Shown here: positions 53,849-64,000 of the stretch, piece after piece
Layout: each line of letters starts with the position of its first letter
Numbering within the stretch: position 1 is the stretch's first letter
Assembly: GCF_015840915.1 (NCBI RefSeq)
Contig: NZ_CP060398.1
Location: 2,294,001 to 2,358,000 of the forward strand
Length of the DNA stretch: 64,000 nucleotides
Direction of reading: 5' to 3'
Source: Synechococcus sp. CBW1002
GTDB lineage: Bacteria > Cyanobacteriota > Cyanobacteriia > PCC-6307 > Cyanobiaceae
Program-made: the position numbers and the translations under genes
The notes under the pieces: generated by a model
Told to the model about the DNA's origin: nothing
Database searches by the model: none
What the model saw: only the letters and a program-made list of their open reading frames with translations

Positions 53849-54373
53849 ATGCCGACTCCCTCGCAACTCCTGCCGGAAGCCGACCGCGATCTGCTGCGGA
53901 TCCTCTGCTGCGTGGCCTGGTCGGATGGGGATTTCGCTGCCGAGGAGAAGCAACTGCTGCAGCGGCTGGTGGCGACCTACTTCCTGCCCGAGGTGGATCC
54001 GCTCAGCGCTGCTGATACTGCCGAGGCCCTGGCCGATGAGGCCATGCAGATGGAGGGGATCGAGGAGCTGGTGCAACGCCTGCAGACCGAATCGGATCGC
54101 CAGCTGGCCCTGAAACTGGCGTTCATGATGATTCGTGTCAGCACCAGCCCTGGCGACGCCTCCAGCATCAATCCGATGGAGCGGGTGGCGTACCGGCGGC
54201 TGGTGGAGGCCCTGGGGCTGGGCGAAGCCAAGGTGCAGGAATGCGAGTGGGCGGCGGAGCAGGAGCTGCGTCAGCACTCCGGCCTGCGGGGCATCCTGGC
54301 GAGCCGCTTTGAGTGGCTGGGGGCCTGGCCGTCGCAGGAGCTGCTGGAGACTCCCGGCATGCAGTGGCTCTGA
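53849..54373 (+). CDS. TerB-family protein
   Basis: This 174-residue, mostly helical protein matches the TerB (tellurite-resistance) domain: LLRILCCVAWSDGDFAAEEKQLLQRLVATYF is the typical first half with the acidic D-G-x-F/x-x-E-E, and AFMMIRVSTSPGDASSINPMERVAYRRLVEALGL the second, repeating the pattern. The family has two helical bundles that bind divalent metal. No other ter gene is nearby. The start is ATG at 53849; another ATG at 53819 is in frame. It is convergent with hypA, 19 bases away. Confidence 0.75.
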   Translation: MPTPSQLLPEADRDLLRILCCVAWSDGDFAAEEKQLLQRLVATYFLPEVDPLSAADTAEALADEAMQMEGIEELVQRLQTESDRQLALKLAFMMIRVSTSPGDASSINPMERVAYRRLVEALGLGEAKVQECEWAAEQELRQHSGLRGILASRFEWLGAWPSQELLETPGMQWL

Positions 54374-54392
54374 GGTCCAACTGTGAGCGGCG

Positions 54393-54800
54393 TCACGGAT
54401 CCCGAAAGGAATCCGCCGCCGAATCCAGAGACTCAATGTCTGAAACAGCTTGCTCTGGAACCTCCAGTTCCAGAGAGATCAGCTCCAGCTCCCGTCCATG
54501 CCGCAGCTGCCGGCTGATGGCGCCGCAACCGGGGCAGGTGGGGTCGCCACCGGCGCCGCTGAACTCCAAGGCGCAGACCTGACAGAACCAGCTGGCGGCC
54601 ACGGGCTCGATCCGCAGGGTGGAGCCCTCCGCCAGGCTGCCTTCCATCACCACGGCATGGGCGAAGTGGAGGGCCTCGGCCTCCACGCCGGCCAGGCTGC
54701 CGATCCGCAGGGTGATCGCCACGATCCGACCGCCGTCGTGGGCCAGGGCCTGCTCCACCGCCAGATCCCGCAGCTGCTCCAGCAGGCTCAGTTCGTGCAT
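54393..54800 (-). CDS. hypA: Hydrogenase nickel metallochaperone HypA
   Basis: HypA delivers nickel to the NiFe hydrogenase active site together with HypB. The 135-residue protein starts with the nickel-binding MHELSLLEQLRDLAVE (His2) and has a zinc site of the form CxxC...CxxC in FCQVCALEF and DPTCPGCGAIS. The size is normal. Its start is preceded by GGAGG and overlaps hoxW by 13 bases on the same strand, showing close coupling. Other hyp genes (B-F) are not in this window. Confidence 0.93.
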   Translation of the reverse strand: MHELSLLEQLRDLAVEQALAHDGGRIVAITLRIGSLAGVEAEALHFAHAVVMEGSLAEGSTLRIEPVAASWFCQVCALEFSGAGGDPTCPGCGAISRQLRHGRELELISLELEVPEQAVSDIESLDSAADSFRDP

Positions 54801-55366
54801 GCGTCCTCCGGCCCGGCCAGCCAGCGCCATAGCAGGGCACGGGCCTCGGGCACCTGGCGTTGCAGGCGTGGCGACCAGTGGGTGCCATGGCCGAAAGACT
54901 CGCCCGGCACCAGCAGCACCCAGGCCGCCGGTCTATGGCCGTAGACCCGGGCACAGAGCTGGAGCAACTGCTCGGCCCCGCAGCGATGCGCACCCAGACC
55001 GCCATCCCTTGAGCAGTCCGCCGCCGCGCCATCGGCACCGCCCTCCACGCTGTCATCCGCGTCGCCCTCAGGGCAGCGCTCCCCTTGGCAAGACACGGAT
55101 GCCAACCGCTCCAGACGCGGCTGATCAGCTCCTCGATCGCCGGCGTCAGCGAGCCAGGCATCCACGAACAGCACCCGCTCGCTGCGGGCCAGATCCGCGG
55201 CCAGTTCCGGCAACAACTGGTGGCAAGGACGCAGCTCAAGCTGCACAAGGAACTCCTGCGCCCGGCTGTCCTGCTCCAGGTCCTCCACCAGCCACCGGCC
55301 CACCCCGTCGTCCTGGCGGAGGGGGTTGCCGATGCCGATCACCAGAACCGTCGGCTCCGCTGCCAT
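54788..55366 (-). CDS. hoxW: Bidirectional hydrogenase maturation protease HoxW
   Basis: HoxW clips the C-terminal extension from HoxH once nickel is in place. The 192-residue protein shows VLVIGIGNPLRQDDGVG at the start (Ni-sensing Asp/Glu region), RVLFVDAWLADAGD near 65-78 and a later LVPGESFGHGTHWS. Residues ~79-125 are a Cys/Asp/Gly-rich segment with no counterpart in the compact (~150-160 residue) family, so an insertion is likely. It lies directly after hoxH with 22 bases between them, and hypA follows with overlap. Confidence 0.88.
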   Translation of the reverse strand: MAAEPTVLVIGIGNPLRQDDGVGRWLVEDLEQDSRAQEFLVQLELRPCHQLLPELAADLARSERVLFVDAWLADAGDRGADQPRLERLASVSCQGERCPEGDADDSVEGGADGAAADCSRDGGLGAHRCGAEQLLQLCARVYGHRPAAWVLLVPGESFGHGTHWSPRLQRQVPEARALLWRWLAGPEDACTN

Positions 55367-55388
55367 CAGTACCGCCGGCGAGCCGCCA

Positions 55389-56849
55389 TCACTGCCGTTG
55401 CCGCGCCGCCAGCAGCGCTCCATCGGCAGCGCGCAGCTCGATCCGCAGGGGCATCTGGCCTGCCGCGTGGGTGGAGCAGGACAGGCAGGGATCAAAACAG
55501 CGAATGCCGGCTTCGACCCGGTTGAGCAGGGGCTCGGGGATCTCGGCCTCGGCTGCCACCGGCTCGGCGATGAACTCCCGGGCGATCTGGACCACGGTGC
55601 GGTTCATGGCCAGGTTGTTCTGGCCGGTGGCGATGATCAGATTCACCCGGGTGATCAGGCCGTCATCGTTGACCCGGTAGTGGTGAAACAGGGTGCCGCG
55701 CGGGGCCTCGCTCACCCCCACCGCCTCCTGGGCGTTCAGGGAGGCACGGGCGCGGATGCGGCCCTCCATGAGGCTGTCATCGGTCACCAGCTGCTCGATC
55801 CCCTCCAGGCAGGCGACGATCTCCACCAGCCGGGCGTGGTGATACGCGAAGGAGGAGGTGACAACGCGACCGCCGCTGGCCGCCGTGCCGCTGCGCTGGC
55901 GGAACTCGATCAGCTCGGCATCGGCCCAGGGGGTACCGATCGCCTCACACACATTCAGCCGTGCCAGGGGACCCACCCGGTAGAGGCCATCGGGGTAGCC
56001 CCGCGGCTTGTAGTAGGGGAATTTCAGGTAGCTCCAGCTCTCCACCGCCTCGCCCAGAAACGAGACGTAGTCGTCTTCCGAGAGGTCGTCGGCCACGATC
56101 CGGCCGTCGCTGTCGATGAAGCGGATCAGGCCGTCGATGCACTCCCAACGGCCGCCTGGCCCCACCAGGCCCATGAACAGGGAGGGAAAGTCGCCGAAGC
56201 AGCGCTGCTCGTGCTGCAACGGCCCATCCAGCAGCGTTTTGTACATCTCCAGGGCCAGGGCCACCGTGGCCCTGGCCTCCGGCAGCCGCTCCAGGATCCA
56301 CTGCCGCGCCTCGGCGCTCAGGGGCGTGCGCACGCCGCCGGGCACAGCCCAGGCCGAGTGAATCTTGCGGCCGCCCAGCAGCTCCAGCACCTGCTGGCCG
56401 AACTGACGCAGGCGGATCCCGGCACGCGCCAGGTCGGGATCGGCCGCCATCAGGCCGAACACATTGCGGTGGGCCGGATCGCTCTCCCAGCCCAGCAGGA
56501 AATCAGGACTGCTGAGGTGGAAAAAGGAGAGGGCGTGGCTCTGACAGATCTGGGCGAGGTTGAGCATCCGCCGCAGCTTGCGCGCCGCCGGCGGCGGCTG
56601 CACCGCCAGCAGCTTGTCGCCGGTCTTGGCAGCGGCCAGCAGGTGGCTCACCGGGCAGATGCCGCAGATCCGCGCCGTGATGCCGGCCATCTCGGTGAAG
56701 GGCCGTCCCTCGCAGAAGGTCTCGAAGCCGCGGTATTCCACCACGTGGAAGCGGGCATCGGCGATGCGCCCGTCGTCGTCGAGGTGGAGGGTGATCTTGG
56801 CGTGACCCTCGATGCGGGTGACGGGATCGATCGTGATCGTGCGGGTCAT
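55389..56849 (-). CDS. hoxH: Bidirectional NiFe hydrogenase large subunit
   Basis: HoxH carries the NiFe(CN)2CO active site. The 486-residue protein has the two nickel motifs: [10 protein letters not shown] (Cys62, Cys65) near the start and DPCLSCSTH (Cys455, Cys458, His461) near the end. The 25 residues after His461 are the maturation peptide removed by HoxW. A ribosome-binding GAGGAG sits 5 bases before the ATG. It is separated from hoxY by an efflux cassette; the nearest upstream gene on the strand, the channel-like protein, ends 67 bases away. Confidence 0.97.
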
Positions 56850-56916
56850 GCGATCTCCTCAGCCGAAGCCCATCCACCACCTTCAGCATGGCCCGAATCC
56901 AGCTGCCTGGCTGGCC

Positions 56917-57516
56917 TCAGCCGGGATCGCCGTTCCGGGCGATGGGGTGGCTTGTGAGTCGGCCTTCGGCCTCGAGGCGCAACGACATGGTGCGCTGCAC
57001 CACGTACACCAGCTGGGCAGTGCTCCAGCCGGCCATCAGCACACCGTTGACGGCTTCCGCCACGCTGAGCAGACGCCAGCAGGCCGGCAGGGTCACATCG
57101 CCATAACCCAACGTGGTGTAGGTGATCCCCGAGAAATAGAGGCTTCCTCCCAGGCCAGGGAATAACCCCAGACCCCGATACACCAGGGCCCAAAGCAGGA
57201 TTTCCACCAACAGGGCCAGGGCCGTGAGCAAGGCCATCACCAGAATCACCAGCAGCCGGCGCCAGCTGCGGCGGGCGCACCAGGCGTTCAGTCGTGGCCG
57301 GTGGGTGAGTTCCGCCTGAATCACGGTGACCAGGGCGTGAACCATGGCGGTGACGATCAGCATCCCCAAGCCAAGGCCCAACTGACCCGCCAGGCCCATG
57401 CAGCGGCTGGATGCCTCAAGGGGGCGGGCCTGGGCAACGGCTGGCAGCGCTGCTGCGAAGAAACCAAGGACCACGGCAGGCCTGAGCCTGGTCTGACCGG
57501 GAAAGCGTGACATCAT
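56917..57516 (-). CDS. Two-helix potassium-channel-like protein
   Basis: The 199-residue protein has an N-terminal signal-like region, then a first pair of membrane helices (GLGMLIVTAMVHALVTV; LLVILVMALLTALALLVEILLWAL) and a pore region SLYFSGITYTTLGYGDVTLP with the K+-type filter TLGYGD, followed by a last helix (VAEAVNGVLMAGWSTAQLVYV). This is the Ion_trans_2 class of small two-transmembrane potassium channels. The regulatory domain usual in larger channels is absent. Its start overlaps the FUSC stop in ATGA, so it is translationally coupled to the FUSC gene. Confidence 0.85.
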   Translation of the reverse strand: MMSRFPGQTRLRPAVVLGFFAAALPAVAQARPLEASSRCMGLAGQLGLGLGMLIVTAMVHALVTVIQAELTHRPRLNAWCARRSWRRLLVILVMALLTALALLVEILLWALVYRGLGLFPGLGGSLYFSGITYTTLGYGDVTLPACWRLLSVAEAVNGVLMAGWSTAQLVYVVQRTMSLRLEAEGRLTSHPIARNGDPG

Positions 57517-58625
57517 CGTGGTCGGGCGGACGCCGGACTGGGCATCTCCGGCATCGGCAACCCGAGCCAGCTGGCCTCCTCTCGAGCAGCGGGCAAGCAG
57601 CGCTCCAGCTCCTGGGGACAGGCACTTGGGTCGCCCCTGAGCTGGTTGTAACGGCGCAGGGCGGAGTTTGGGAAGAGCAACAGGCCAACAGCCAGGGCCA
57701 GGCCGCAACCCATCAGGTAATCGATCCATCGATTCGGGATGTACCAGGCCACCAGGGGGCCATAGCCGATGAAGGCCACACCGCTGGAGATCAGCGCGGT
57801 GCGCAGGTAAGCGGTGCCGTTGAGCGCGATCAGCAAGGCCGCCGTCCCGCCCATCACCAGTCCCGTCTGCAGGCTCCCCATCCCCAGGGTGTTGAACACC
57901 AGCAGGGGCATGAGGATGCCGAGGCTGACCCCCACCATGCGGTCCCGAACCCGGGCGAGAGTGTCGCCGATGCTGTCGTTCAGCAGCAGCACCACCCCGA
58001 AGTAGAGGTATTTCGGCGTCACCGCGCCCACACCCTCGCCGATGGCCAGGGCGAGGCTGGCGAACACCAGCTTTCGCCAGAAGAACGGCGATGCCAGACC
58101 CTGGCGCATGCTCTGGGCCAGGGGAGGATCCATCTGTTTCTCCGGGGCCGCCGCGACGGGTTGGGGCGTCACTGCCGGTGCAAAGGCGACCTGTATCACG
58201 GTGCCGGTGACCAGGCCGAGGGTGATGGCGATCAACTCCTGACCCCAGGCACTCCAGCTGGGCGAGCTGCTCAGCAGGGGCAGCACCCCCGCCACGGCTA
58301 TCACCCCGGACAGCAGCCGCAGTTTTGCCGGCAGCATCAAGGTGAGGACCTGCATCAACGCCGCCACCAGTCCGAACACGAACACCTGCGGCACGGAGGC
58401 CAGGGCCAGACCCACGCTCACCCCGATCGCCATGCAGACCCCGACCAACACCAGCAGCACCGGATAGATCGCCAGGGGCCAGCGGCTGAAATCAGGTCGC
58501 ACCACCAGGGCCGCGATCACCGAGCCATAGGCGATGGCATCGCCGCTCAGGCCGATCCCGCCGCAGACGGCACCGGCAAAGGCGGCCGCCAGGCCGATCA
58601 CCAGGGCTGCGCGCAGCTGGGTCAT
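57513..58625 (-). CDS. FUSC-family inner-membrane transporter
   Basis: The 370-residue protein has about ten hydrophobic segments in two halves, matching the FUSC family (relatives of AaeB, YccS and aromatic-acid exporters). Family-like parts are GGIGLSGDAIAYGSVIAALVVRPDFS near the start and the second-half AVTPKYLYFGVVLLLNDSIGDTLARVRDRMVGVSLGI. It is about half the length of AaeB and has no large cytosolic domain. The stop of the 58-residue membrane protein is directly followed by its ATG, and its own stop overlaps the channel gene, so the group is one operon. Substrate unknown. Confidence 0.85.
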   Translation of the reverse strand: MTQLRAALVIGLAAAFAGAVCGGIGLSGDAIAYGSVIAALVVRPDFSRWPLAIYPVLLVLVGVCMAIGVSVGLALASVPQVFVFGLVAALMQVLTLMLPAKLRLLSGVIAVAGVLPLLSSSPSWSAWGQELIAITLGLVTGTVIQVAFAPAVTPQPVAAAPEKQMDPPLAQSMRQGLASPFFWRKLVFASLALAIGEGVGAVTPKYLYFGVVLLLNDSIGDTLARVRDRMVGVSLGILMPLLVFNTLGMGSLQTGLVMGGTAALLIALNGTAYLRTALISSGVAFIGYGPLVAWYIPNRWIDYLMGCGLALAVGLLLFPNSALRRYNQLRGDPSACPQELERCLPAAREEASWLGLPMPEMPSPASARPR

Positions 58626-58802
58626 TCAGGAGGGGGGTGGACGCAGGGCCTGCGCCCAGCCCACCAGCAGCACCACCAGCAGCAAGGCCACCCAGAACCA
58701 CAACCGCGGTGGCGAGCTGATGATGGCAATCACCAGCAGCACCAGGGCAATCCAGGGGGCGGGTTGGCGCCAGGGCGCCAACCATCGATCACGGTGGTTC
58801 AT
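58626..58802 (-). CDS. 58-residue two-helix membrane protein (AaeX-like position)
   Basis: A short ORF of 58 residues starts with MNHRDRWLAPWRQP and has two hydrophobic segments (WIALVLLVIAIISS and LWFWVALLLVVLLVGWAQAL) and a Pro-rich end. Its TGA is immediately followed by the FUSC ATG, which supports it being a real gene. In Enterobacteria, AaeX (DUF1656) is a similarly tiny membrane protein beside AaeA and AaeB; the position and size here suggest an analogue, although the sequence need not be homologous. Confidence 0.7.
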   Translation of the reverse strand: MNHRDRWLAPWRQPAPWIALVLLVIAIISSPPRLWFWVALLLVVLLVGWAQALRPPPS

Positions 58803-58832
58803 CGGTTGGCACGCTTCATCGGTAGACCCCTC

Positions 58833-59993
58833 TCATCGCTCCGCCCCCCCCAGCCAGCGGAGGAACGGCAACACGAAACTCACCAGAGAACGGCGCTCCA
58901 CCTCCACCTTGGCCTTGGCGGGCGTGCCGTTCTCCAGGGGCAGATCGGGGCCCTGACCGCTGCTCCAGCGCAGGCCACTGGGGGTGGCGGCGGCTTCCAG
59001 CGCCACGGTGACCAGTTGCACCGGAGCGGTGATCTTGTCGGTTGCGGTGGCCAGGGGATCGCCACCTTCGCCGACGGCGGCCTGACGGCTGCGGGCGATC
59101 AGGCTCTCGGCCAGCTCGGGATCACCCACGGCCCGGCTCACCTCCGCCAGGTCGGCCGTGGCGGGTGAAATGGCCAGGATGCGCCCCTCCAGTGAGCCGA
59201 AGCGCTGGGAGGTTCCTCCGTAACGATCGCGCGTCTGCAGGAGGGGATCGAGCTGAATCGCCGCTCCCGGGCGCAGCCTCACGGCGTCGGCATCACTGAA
59301 CAGGGCCGTGGCCAGGCGAGGCCGGCTTTCCTCCCGGGGGCCGGGCCCGAGGGTGCCCAGCCGCTGTCCCGGCAGAACCGCCTGGCCCGGACTCACCGAC
59401 AGACTCAGCAGCCGGCCGGAGCGGGGTGCCAGCACATCCTGGCCCTCCCGCTGGGCCTCCAGTTCGGCGCGACTGGCATCGATCTGGGCCAATTGCGCCT
59501 CCAGGGCCTTGATCTGGCTCTGGTTGCGGAGATAGAGGTCCTGCGCTCCCACCCACAGGGGGCTGTAACGGGGGATGACCTCCTCGCGGCGCAGGTTCTC
59601 CAGGGCCTGCAGTTGCTTCAGCACCGGCTGATTCGACGTGCGAAGGGCCGCGATCTGGGCACGAATCGCCTCCTGCTGGCGGGTGAGCGCCTCTCCCTGG
59701 CGGACCAGGGCATTGGGATTGGGTCCTACCGCACCCGCACCCGCCGCCGCCTGGTCCAACCGACTCAGACTGGCCAGCAGATCACCCCGCTGCACCACAT
59801 CACCGATGCGCCGATGCAGTTGCTGCACCTGGCCCGGTGACCGTGCATAAAATCCCGATCGGCTTTCGGGTTGGAGCAGCACGGCACTGCCCTCGACCTT
59901 CACCGCTACAGCCGGTGACAGAGCCCAAGCACCCGTCAATCCGGTCACCAGGGCCATCGGCAACAGACGTGGGGCACAATCCAAGCTGGCCAT
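58833..59993 (-). CDS. HlyD-family membrane fusion protein
   Basis: The 386-residue periplasmic adaptor has one N-terminal membrane helix (LPMALVTGLTGAWALSPAVAV), a biotinyl-lipoyl half-motif (GFYARSPGQVQQLHRRIGDVVQRGDLLASL), a long coiled coil at residues ~90-185 and the second lipoyl half and beta-barrel (VLAPRSGRLLSLSVSPGQAVLPGQRLGTLG). It would join the inner-membrane FUSC permease to a TolC channel. The 30-base gap to the small membrane protein and divergence from the TolC-like gene support a tripartite unit. The ATG at 59993 is chosen; a TTG at 60017 is in frame. Confidence 0.9.
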   Translation of the reverse strand: MASLDCAPRLLPMALVTGLTGAWALSPAVAVKVEGSAVLLQPESRSGFYARSPGQVQQLHRRIGDVVQRGDLLASLSRLDQAAAGAGAVGPNPNALVRQGEALTRQQEAIRAQIAALRTSNQPVLKQLQALENLRREEVIPRYSPLWVGAQDLYLRNQSQIKALEAQLAQIDASRAELEAQREGQDVLAPRSGRLLSLSVSPGQAVLPGQRLGTLGPGPREESRPRLATALFSDADAVRLRPGAAIQLDPLLQTRDRYGGTSQRFGSLEGRILAISPATADLAEVSRAVGDPELAESLIARSRQAAVGEGGDPLATATDKITAPVQLVTVALEAAATPSGLRWSSGQGPDLPLENGTPAKAKVEVERRSLVSFVLPFLRWLGGAER

Positions 59994-60052
59994 CACGCCT
60001 GGCGTTACTGCAATCAATCAACCTTATCTACTTTAGGCTCTGCCAAATTTCC

Positions 60053-61546
60053 TTGGTTCAGGGTTTGGGTCGCCGGTTCGGTTGGTTGGGCACGTTCGCG
60101 ATCCTGACCCAGGGCCTTGCCTCCGGTCTTCTTCCCTGCTGGGCTGCCGCCCCGATCGACACGTCTGCAACGGATTCCCTCCTGACCCTCAGCCGGCAGC
60201 AGGCCCTGGAGCTGGGGCTGGGACGGTCGTTGAGCCTGCGCAGTCAGGTGATCACGGTGGAGGAAAATCAGGCCCTGGTTGGGCTGGCCCGCTCCCGTTT
60301 TCTGCCCAAGCTCGACCTGGTCGCCCTCGGGACCTTTGCCCAGGTCAACACCAACATCGGCTTCATTTCCAACCTGCCCACCATCGGTGATCTGAATCTC
60401 AACCTCGGCACCGACAGTTCAGCGCTGATCAACAACACATTTGTGAATCTGGGGCTGATCCTGCGGGTGCCCCTGCTCGATTTCAGCCGCAGCCCGATCC
60501 AGCAGGCCGCCAGGGCCGATCTGGAGGCCGCCCGGTCCGAGCAGGCGGAACAGCAACGTGTCGCTCGCTTCGAGATCCTCAGCCGCTACCTCTCGGCCCA
60601 GGTAACCGCTGCCCAGATTCCCGTGTGGGAAAGCTCCCTGACCGTGTCCCAGAGGTTGCTGCGCGACGTGAACGCGATCCGGCGCGAAGGTCTGGCGCCC
60701 CGCATCGACACGTTTCAGGCCGAAGCCCTGATCCAGTCCGACCTGCAGGGGCTTGCGGAAGCCCAGGCCCAGCACACGATTGCCCTGAGCGCCCTGGCCC
60801 GGCTTCTGAATCTGCCGGCCGCAACCCGGATTCAGCCCAGCGACCCGCTGCAGCCCGACCCAGCCTGGCAACCCACCCTGGACGAGAGCCTGCGGCAAGC
60901 CCTGGCCCAGCGGCCGGCCCTGGAAAGCCTGGAACACCGGCGTCAGGCGCAGGAGGCCAAGGTGCAGCTGGCCCGGGCCGGCCGATTGCCGACCGTGGGA
61001 CTGCTTCTGGGTGGAGGCATCAGCGGAGATTGGCTGGACATCCCCGGCGCGAGCGCCACCTCCAGCCTCAACAGTGGCCGTGGCAGTAGCCGTAGCAATG
61101 GCCGTGGCCTTGGGGTCAACCTGCCGACCGCCACCACCAGCGGCAGCGCCTCGGGCAGCTTCACCGACTGGGGCGCCGCCATCACCGTGCGCCAGCCCCT
61201 CTACGACGGCGGCCAGAGCCGCGACACGATCGCCCTGGCCCGCCGCCAGCTCGCCCAGGCCGAGATCGCCATCGAGCAGGCCCAGCAGGCGATCATCCAG
61301 AGCGTGGAAACTTGGTACGCCACCCACCAGGCCGCCGCTGCCCAGTCCGTTGCGGCCCGAGCAGCGATCACCGCTGGCCAGCGGTCCGTGGATGATGCAC
61401 GGCTGCGCTACCGGGCCGGTCTGGCCCCGATCACGGAGGTGTTGATCGCGCAGCGGAACCTGCAGCTGGCCCGCTCCGCCGAGGCGACCGCCATCTACCG
61501 GTGGAATCTGAGCCGGGCTGCCCTGGAACTGGAGACCGGCCTCTGA
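60053..61546 (+). CDS. TolC-like outer membrane efflux protein
   Basis: The 497-residue protein has a signal peptide (GWLGTFAILTQGLASGLLPCWAAA) and the OEP repeat pattern: two homologous halves with long amphipathic helices (TLSRQQALELGLGRSLSLRSQ; ARADLEAARSEQAEQQRVARFEIL; LDESLRQALAQRPALESLEHRRQAQEAKVQLARAG; IAIEQAQQAIIQSVETWYAT). A Ser/Gly-rich insert (about residues 335-380) lies in the second half. The start is a TTG at 60053 or 60065; no ATG is near the signal peptide. It would provide the outer-membrane channel for the divergent HlyD/FUSC set. Confidence 0.88.
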   Translation: MVQGLGRRFGWLGTFAILTQGLASGLLPCWAAAPIDTSATDSLLTLSRQQALELGLGRSLSLRSQVITVEENQALVGLARSRFLPKLDLVALGTFAQVNTNIGFISNLPTIGDLNLNLGTDSSALINNTFVNLGLILRVPLLDFSRSPIQQAARADLEAARSEQAEQQRVARFEILSRYLSAQVTAAQIPVWESSLTVSQRLLRDVNAIRREGLAPRIDTFQAEALIQSDLQGLAEAQAQHTIALSALARLLNLPAATRIQPSDPLQPDPAWQPTLDESLRQALAQRPALESLEHRRQAQEAKVQLARAGRLPTVGLLLGGGISGDWLDIPGASATSSLNSGRGSSRSNGRGLGVNLPTATTSGSASGSFTDWGAAITVRQPLYDGGQSRDTIALARRQLAQAEIAIEQAQQAIIQSVETWYATHQAAAAQSVAARAAITAGQRSVDDARLRYRAGLAPITEVLIAQRNLQLARSAEATAIYRWNLSRAALELETGL

Positions 61547-61569
61547 GGCAGGCTGATCAGGGCCTGTCC

Positions 61570-62135
61570 CTAACCGAACCGCAGCAGGTCGGGCCCCGCC
61601 AGCTCTGGACGTTCCCCCCGCAGCAGCGGCTCGAGACAGGCGCGGATCCGCTCGGCGGAGGGCGGGCAGCCGGGCAGGAAGACATCCACCGGGATCACCT
61701 CGTGCAGCGGCAGCACCCGCTCCAGCAGCTCCGGCACGATGCCGGGAGCATGGGGATGCTGAGCTCCCTGGTCGGCCAGCTCCAGGTAACCGCGATCCAG
61801 CACGCTCTGGCGGCTGCCGCCATCCACCTCGGCCCAGAGGTTGCGCAACGCCGGCACGTTGCCGGTCACCGCGCAGTCGCCGAAGGAGATCACCAGGCGG
61901 GTGCGCTGGCGCAGCTGCAGGGCCAGCTCGAGATTGTCGGCATTGGCCACGGCCCCCTCCACCAGACAGACATCCACCTGCTCGGGATAGGTCTTGATGT
62001 CGCTGGCCACCGGCGAGAACACGATGTCCACGTGCCTGGCGAGTTCGAACAGCCACTCGTCAAGATCGAGAAACGACATGTGGCAGCCGCTGCAGCCGGC
62101 CAGCCACACGGTGGCGAATCTCAACTTGGGGGCGG

Positions 62136-62139
<4 letters not shown>
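61570..62139 (-). CDS. hoxY: Bidirectional NiFe hydrogenase small subunit
   Basis: HoxY carries the proximal 4Fe-4S cluster that wires HoxH to the diaphorase part. The 189-residue protein has [10 protein letters not shown] (Cys16, Cys19), [13 protein letters not shown] and [13 protein letters not shown] for the remaining ligands, as in other hox small subunits. The start is GTG at 62139, overlapping the hoxU stop in GTGA; this coupling decides the start. The hox run stops here: the next gene in the same direction is the efflux adaptor, with the TolC-like gene on the other strand between. Confidence 0.95.

Positions 62140-64000
<1,861 letters not shown>

Follow-up and report, generated by a model that had tools for sequence, protein, structure and literature searches.

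The window analysed here comprises 64,000 nucleotides of Synechococcus sp. CBW1002 (assembly GCF_015840915.1, contig NZ_CP060398.1, positions 2,294,001 to 2,358,000, forward strand), a freshwater cyanobacterium with a single-contig genome of 3.85 Mb. It contains a cluster of export genes that includes a previously unnamed membrane protein of only 58 residues. The gene order on the minus strand is HlyD-type periplasmic adaptor (58833..60017), 58-residue two-helix membrane protein (58626..58802), FUSC-type permease of 370 residues (57513..58625) and K+-channel-like protein (56917..57516), and a TolC-like outer membrane factor is encoded divergently on the plus strand (60053..61546). This arrangement had been proposed with correct coordinates in a first-pass annotation of the window, and the Pfam matches agree with it: HlyD_3 for the adaptor (39.4 bits), FUSC_2 for the permease (PF13515; 31.3 bits, cut-off 25.6), OEP for the outer membrane factor (PF02321; 156.9 bits) and Ion_trans_2 for the channel (PF07885; 41.7 bits). 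The adaptor starts with TTG at 60017 or alternatively with ATG at 59993, and a TTG at about 60053 is the presumed start of the TolC-like gene. The small gene extends from an ATG to a TGA that directly abuts the ATG of the FUSC gene, as the annotation had also stated, and the ATG of the channel gene (57516) overlaps the FUSC stop. With its Ion_trans_2 domain and GYG filter (TTLGYGD) the latter protein has the hallmarks of two-transmembrane-helix K+ channels, its conductance being predicted from sequence. A promoter and terminator scan of positions 54300-63000 returned no promoter-like sites, and terminator-like sites occurred at the level of shuffled sequence. The transcript units are therefore deduced solely from the gene order.

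The conservation of the small gene was investigated in two overlapping sets of genomes. Among 300 genomes of the family to which the strain belongs, 46 harbor a short single-chain FUSC gene of the kind found in the window (type A; E < 1e-30), and a profile of the small protein detects a copy within 6-280 bp of this gene in 44 of them. In the two misses the FUSC match begins at base 6 of its contig (G258) or is a remnant of 267 bases (G291). A separate scan of a collection of named genomes likewise yielded 46 loci; the two counts overlap because several loci represent the same contigs. In this second set the small frame is located between HlyD and FUSC at 44 loci, the remaining two begin inside FUSC, and the synteny thus holds for all 44 loci that can be tested. 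The TolC gene is divergent in all 41 loci whose contig reaches that far. The coupled K+-channel gene reported in the first-pass annotation is present in the window, but it occurs in only nine of the 46 named loci and is lineage-restricted. Neither a lack of conservation of the frame in related genomes nor a general separation of FUSC from HlyD, the two outcomes named there as refuting the proposed system, was found. Nearly all FUSC relatives of the named collection stem from records labelled Synechococcus, Cyanobium, Vulcanococcus, Synechococcaceae or uncultured cyanobacterium, with a few odd labels. One contig with the cyanobacterial pump (L139) belongs to a metagenome-assembled genome titled Bifidobacterium breve and is probably mislabelled or misbinned.

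The 58-residue frame is a real gene under purifying selection. Across a 36-codon core of 13 sequences the mean nonsynonymous divergence (pN) is 0.154 versus a synonymous divergence (pS) of 0.436, and pN is lower than pS in all 78 pairs. Five residues (L23, P32, W35, F36 and W37) are invariant across 43 members from four types of locus. We define the family by a length of about 50-90 residues, two helices, an invariant P-x-x-W-F-W motif and a gene adjoining a HlyD adaptor, and the protein of the window shows all of these features. The AlphaFold2 model, which is of modest confidence, places its helices at residues 16-28 and 34-53 and the conserved motif at the turn between them. Pfam and NCBIfam contain no family over cut-off for this protein, the weak matches being spread over many unrelated families. 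Its profile matched a single solved structure, a peptide of 30 residues (E 0.017), which was taken as a chance hit, and a weak match in genome G046 (L009) was dropped for the same reason, given its partial protein coverage and the absence of an adjoining full-length adaptor match. The suspicion that such a gene is easily missed proved justified: it is annotated as a 177-base “hypothetical protein” in Leptolyngbya sp. BL0902 and is unannotated between HlyD and FUSC on a plasmid of Fischerella sp. NIES-4106 (L176, 4875-5099). The first-pass annotation knew of no description of this combination in cyanobacteria, and we found neither the small protein nor a pump inside a hox operon described in the open-licence literature searched, including passages of PMC7682875, PMC8277102 and PMC5186783; the main text of PMC5186783 mentions neither HlyD nor TolC. 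The small protein is real and conserved, had not been named before, and is the presumed mini-subunit of this cyanobacterial FUSC exporter.

The distribution of the small family reveals to which partner it belongs. It follows HlyD in four types of locus. Type A is the layout of the window with the short single-chain FUSC. Type B has a split permease, encoded as separate proteins of 333 and 364 residues (L072, L114, L117, L118, L178). Type C contains a full-length FUSC (L075, L112, L113, L119, L175 and L176, including Leptolyngbya and Fischerella), whose chain length amounts to 718-763 residues in L075, L112, L113, L175 and L176. Type D consists of HlyD and the small gene together with TolC, and shows no FUSC within the 16 kb fetched (L115, L116). 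Accordingly, permeases of one short chain, one long chain and two split chains are represented, and at the split-FUSC and HlyD/TolC loci the small gene is not located beside FUSC in the same operon. A phylum-wide search with the small-protein profile returned 15 of 292 genomes, nine of them from the family of the window, and in the genome of the window itself (G000) only three places. This genome harbors HlyD-small sets and FUSC permeases in equal number, three of each, which may pair one to one. At about 1.141 Mb it contains an orphan split FUSC pair (L198, 6373-8201), next to which no adaptor and no small gene were detected; this pair is a possible partner of the type D locus at 3.756 Mb. 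At about 1.92 Mb (L197, 1656-7378) an NHLP-like exporter is encoded by two ABC genes and a TIGR03794-type HlyD gene without a small gene; the HlyD gene abuts the ABC gene, which leaves no room for one. Another FUSC, of 768 residues, adjoins ribBA-like genes in genome G559 (L177) and is accompanied by neither adaptor nor small gene. The small protein tracks the adaptor, because it is present after HlyD in all four locus types and absent from ABC-linked HlyD as well as from FUSC without an adaptor.

The adaptor itself is assigned by its sequence to the NHLP rather than to the AaeA class. Its best NCBIfam model is TIGR03794 with 102.4 bits, which is below the cut-off of 156.2, and the AaeA model NF007850 is not among its matches, whereas this model is the top match of the five proteobacterial adaptors scanned. 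The TIGR03794 cut-off is passed by five relatives, namely the type B and type D paralogues of this genome and the adaptors of L113, Leptolyngbya and Fischerella. The model bears the name “NHLP bacteriocin system secretion protein”, and the adaptors that pass it stem from L175 (3403-4905), L072, L116, L113 and L176. In the adaptor tree the adaptors with a small partner cluster together (88/92), and six AaeA-type adaptors constitute a separate clade (100/99). Inspection of the alignment by eye showed that small-partnered adaptors end in a similar tail, approximately R-x-x-x-S/T-Y/F-x-x-P-x-F/L-R-x-x-x-G, which is absent from the AaeA sequences. The RefSeq name of the Leptolyngbya adaptor is likewise “NHLP bacteriocin system secretion protein”, a label that is probably misleading for FUSC-linked adaptors.

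AaeB-type permeases comprise about 650 residues or more and are built from two membrane halves, both of which carry a large soluble domain. The permease of the window had been described as about half of AaeB, which holds for its length but not for its membrane part. The AlphaFold2 model (predicted local distance difference test, pLDDT, 88; predicted template modelling score, pTM, 0.84) shows two helical halves, with about six membrane helices in each, and only a short C-terminal tail. Because both halves are kept in the model, the shortness of the protein appears to reflect mainly missing soluble domains and not missing membrane helices. Residues 166-370 match plant ALMT anion channels with a VIA Z-score of 12.7 (4.2 Å over 202 residues). 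All nine chains with Z of at least 8 are ALMTs, and the next best value is 5.3; the argument lies in this gap, because for helical bundles the tool warns that Z-scores below about 13 may lack specificity. The modelled C-terminal half is thus related in fold to ALMT, which occurs in plants without adaptor or TolC, unlike the system of the window. In hhalign comparisons the same half matches the split type B permeases with probabilities of 93% and 90% and type C weakly. Neither an internal repeat (N-terminal versus C-terminal half, not significant) nor a solved structure matching the permease profile was detected, and the N-terminal half is, to judge from the model, plausibly a diverged FUSC half.

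The genes of the pump are inserted into a hox hydrogenase operon, where they separate hoxY from hoxH (window 54393-64000; all hox and accessory genes on the minus strand), a feature that the first-pass annotation did not mention. The hoxY-type small subunit (61570..62202; PF01058, 103 bits) forms the upstream flank and is preceded by hoxU (62136..62855; NF005745, 386 bits, cut-off 333) and a hoxF-type diaphorase subunit, which runs off the window (62852..64000; PF01512 and PF10589). Directly downstream of the pump genes is located the hoxH-type [NiFe] hydrogenase large subunit (55389..56849; PF00374, 103 bits), followed by a hoxW-like maturation protease (54788..55495; TIGR00072, 58.4 bits, cut-off 47.45) and a hypA-like nickel chaperone (54393..54830; PF01155, 87 bits). 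In this configuration hoxH would be read from the promoter of the pump or by read-through past the opposing TolC gene. The same hoxY/hoxH insertion is found in L045, L120 (same contig as L047) and L156, and in L122 the hox genes are located uninterrupted about 4 kb past the channel. A branch with 74/87 support, recovered in 73% of bootstrap trees, separates the adaptors of the four hox-embedded copies from the others, which hints at a single origin of this form without establishing it firmly. A second neighborhood of FUSC and hydrogenase genes was observed on two Azospirillum plasmids (L083, L084), where HlyD, FUSC and DUF1656 lie upstream of genes for an ATP-binding protein, HupU and the large subunit of a nickel hydrogenase.

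The first-pass annotation regarded the cluster as an AaeAXB-like export system. An exporter composed of HlyD, tiny protein, FUSC and TolC is indeed encoded, and AaeXAB and YdhIJK of E. coli likewise combine a FUSC permease, a HlyD-type adaptor and a short membrane protein in one operon; AaeX, too, has two helices. A true AaeAXB aromatic-acid efflux pump, with the small protein as a diverged AaeX and the adaptor as a diverged AaeA, might be suspected all the more as the alignment of the full-length FUSC of cyanobacteria (type C) with AaeB-type permeases reaches a probability of 94.5%. Nevertheless, we consider it quite unlikely. Eight DUF1656 sequences, taken from E. coli and from plasmids, were compared with the small family and gave hhalign probabilities of 0.2% and 0.1%, a profile-profile result that led us to reject homology of the small protein to AaeX/DUF1656. 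PF07869 (DUF1656) has no match in the small protein of the window and exceeds its cut-off in none of 194 cyanobacterial genomes, whereas one of 14 control genomes passes. The adaptor is placed outside the AaeA clade, the gene order HlyD-small-FUSC differs from aaeX-aaeA-aaeB, the E. coli FUSC comprises 655 residues versus 370, and TolC is encoded alongside only in the window. From the features of ArAE pumps the window thus retains the FUSC permease, and it lacks an AaeA-class adaptor, a DUF1656 protein and the soluble-domain layout. “AaeAXB-like” is therefore a designation by analogy only. The sequence comparisons are best read as indicating a small protein that is analogous to AaeX and was independently acquired, kinship not having been detected. 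Another parallel in composition is the Bucl8-associated fusCDE pump, a tetrapartite FUSC system whose fourth part, according to PMC7682875, is a small DUF protein; it occurs in other organisms with another outer membrane component, and the small protein of the window matches no Pfam family.

The adaptor class raises the alternative of a peptide exporter resembling NHLP bacteriocin systems, in which TIGR03794 HlyD proteins cooperate with TIGR03796/TIGR03797 ABC proteins. The best model of the adaptor, the five relatives above its cut-off and the RefSeq label all point in this direction, but the window adaptor scores 102 versus the required 156 and its neighbors are the small protein, FUSC, the channel, TolC and hox genes instead of an ABC/peptidase pair. 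This pair is replaced by FUSC, a two-helix protein is added, and the ABC-linked HlyD of the same genome is encoded at a separate locus without a small gene, all of which renders peptide export unlikely. A search of the genome for NHLP leaders found none, and the controls gave no match either. The small frame could finally serve only to couple the two pump genes around it or as a leader, without a working product, as it abuts or nearly abuts its neighbors in the manner of translational coupling frames. The uniform excess of pS over pN, the residues L, P, W, F and W that are invariant over sequences from four locus types, and the loci at which the frame is not beside FUSC in the same operon make this highly improbable.

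The cluster probably represents a cyanobacterial four-part FUSC exporter with a small subunit that accompanies the adaptor. The FUSC permease would reside in the inner membrane, the NHLP-class HlyD adaptor in the periplasm and the TolC-type channel in the outer membrane. The 58-residue protein, with its predicted two-helix topology, would accompany the adaptor in the inner membrane, most likely as a subunit that aids assembly or acts as a clamp, keeping the adaptor attached to the permease. In such a complex the permease would move its substrate, probably an organic anion, which would then pass outward through the adaptor and TolC. Several observations weigh against this four-part exporter. 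The model of the small protein reaches a pLDDT of only 70 and a pTM of 0.39, and its binding to HlyD or FUSC has to be presumed. Foldseek alone places ALMT at E of about 0.45, below MFS matches by E-value, and hhalign detects no homology of the N-terminal permease half to other FUSC halves. In the adaptor tree the joint group does not reach the starred support threshold, and the row of the ABC-linked adaptor is very long. Moreover, a pump gene is damaged in two of the four hox-embedded copies: in L045 (G227) the TolC gene is split by an insert of about 2.8 kb, whose frames we take to be transposase-like, and in Synechococcus sp. CS-1330 (L156, 9001-10184) a short insertion with a shift disrupts the FUSC frame, and the channel gene has been lost. 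The hox-embedded pump may thus be dispensable in these strains.

Because the small protein occupies the place of the unrelated AaeX, two lineages of FUSC pumps may each have gained such a part. A bolder scenario holds that these gains of unrelated two-helix mini-subunits were independent, which would imply a mechanical need for such a part at the joint between FUSC and adaptor. In this scenario the hox-embedded pump would be expressed together with the large subunit of the hydrogenase and would export organic anions formed by fermentation in the dark, while the K+ channel balances the charge; taken as a whole, we regard it as speculative and rather unlikely. For annotation practice, our survey is a warning about the name “NHLP bacteriocin system secretion protein”, which is being put on adaptors adjoining FUSC permeases. 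The three permease layouts provide a natural series for studying the role of the soluble FUSC domains, and an overlooked family of membrane microproteins is now firmly tied to a genomic partner and has a role that can be tested. Should FUSC pumps be served by a second two-helix subunit of unrelated origin, swapping and deletion would make it possible to test what the poorly understood AaeX/DUF1656 proteins do.

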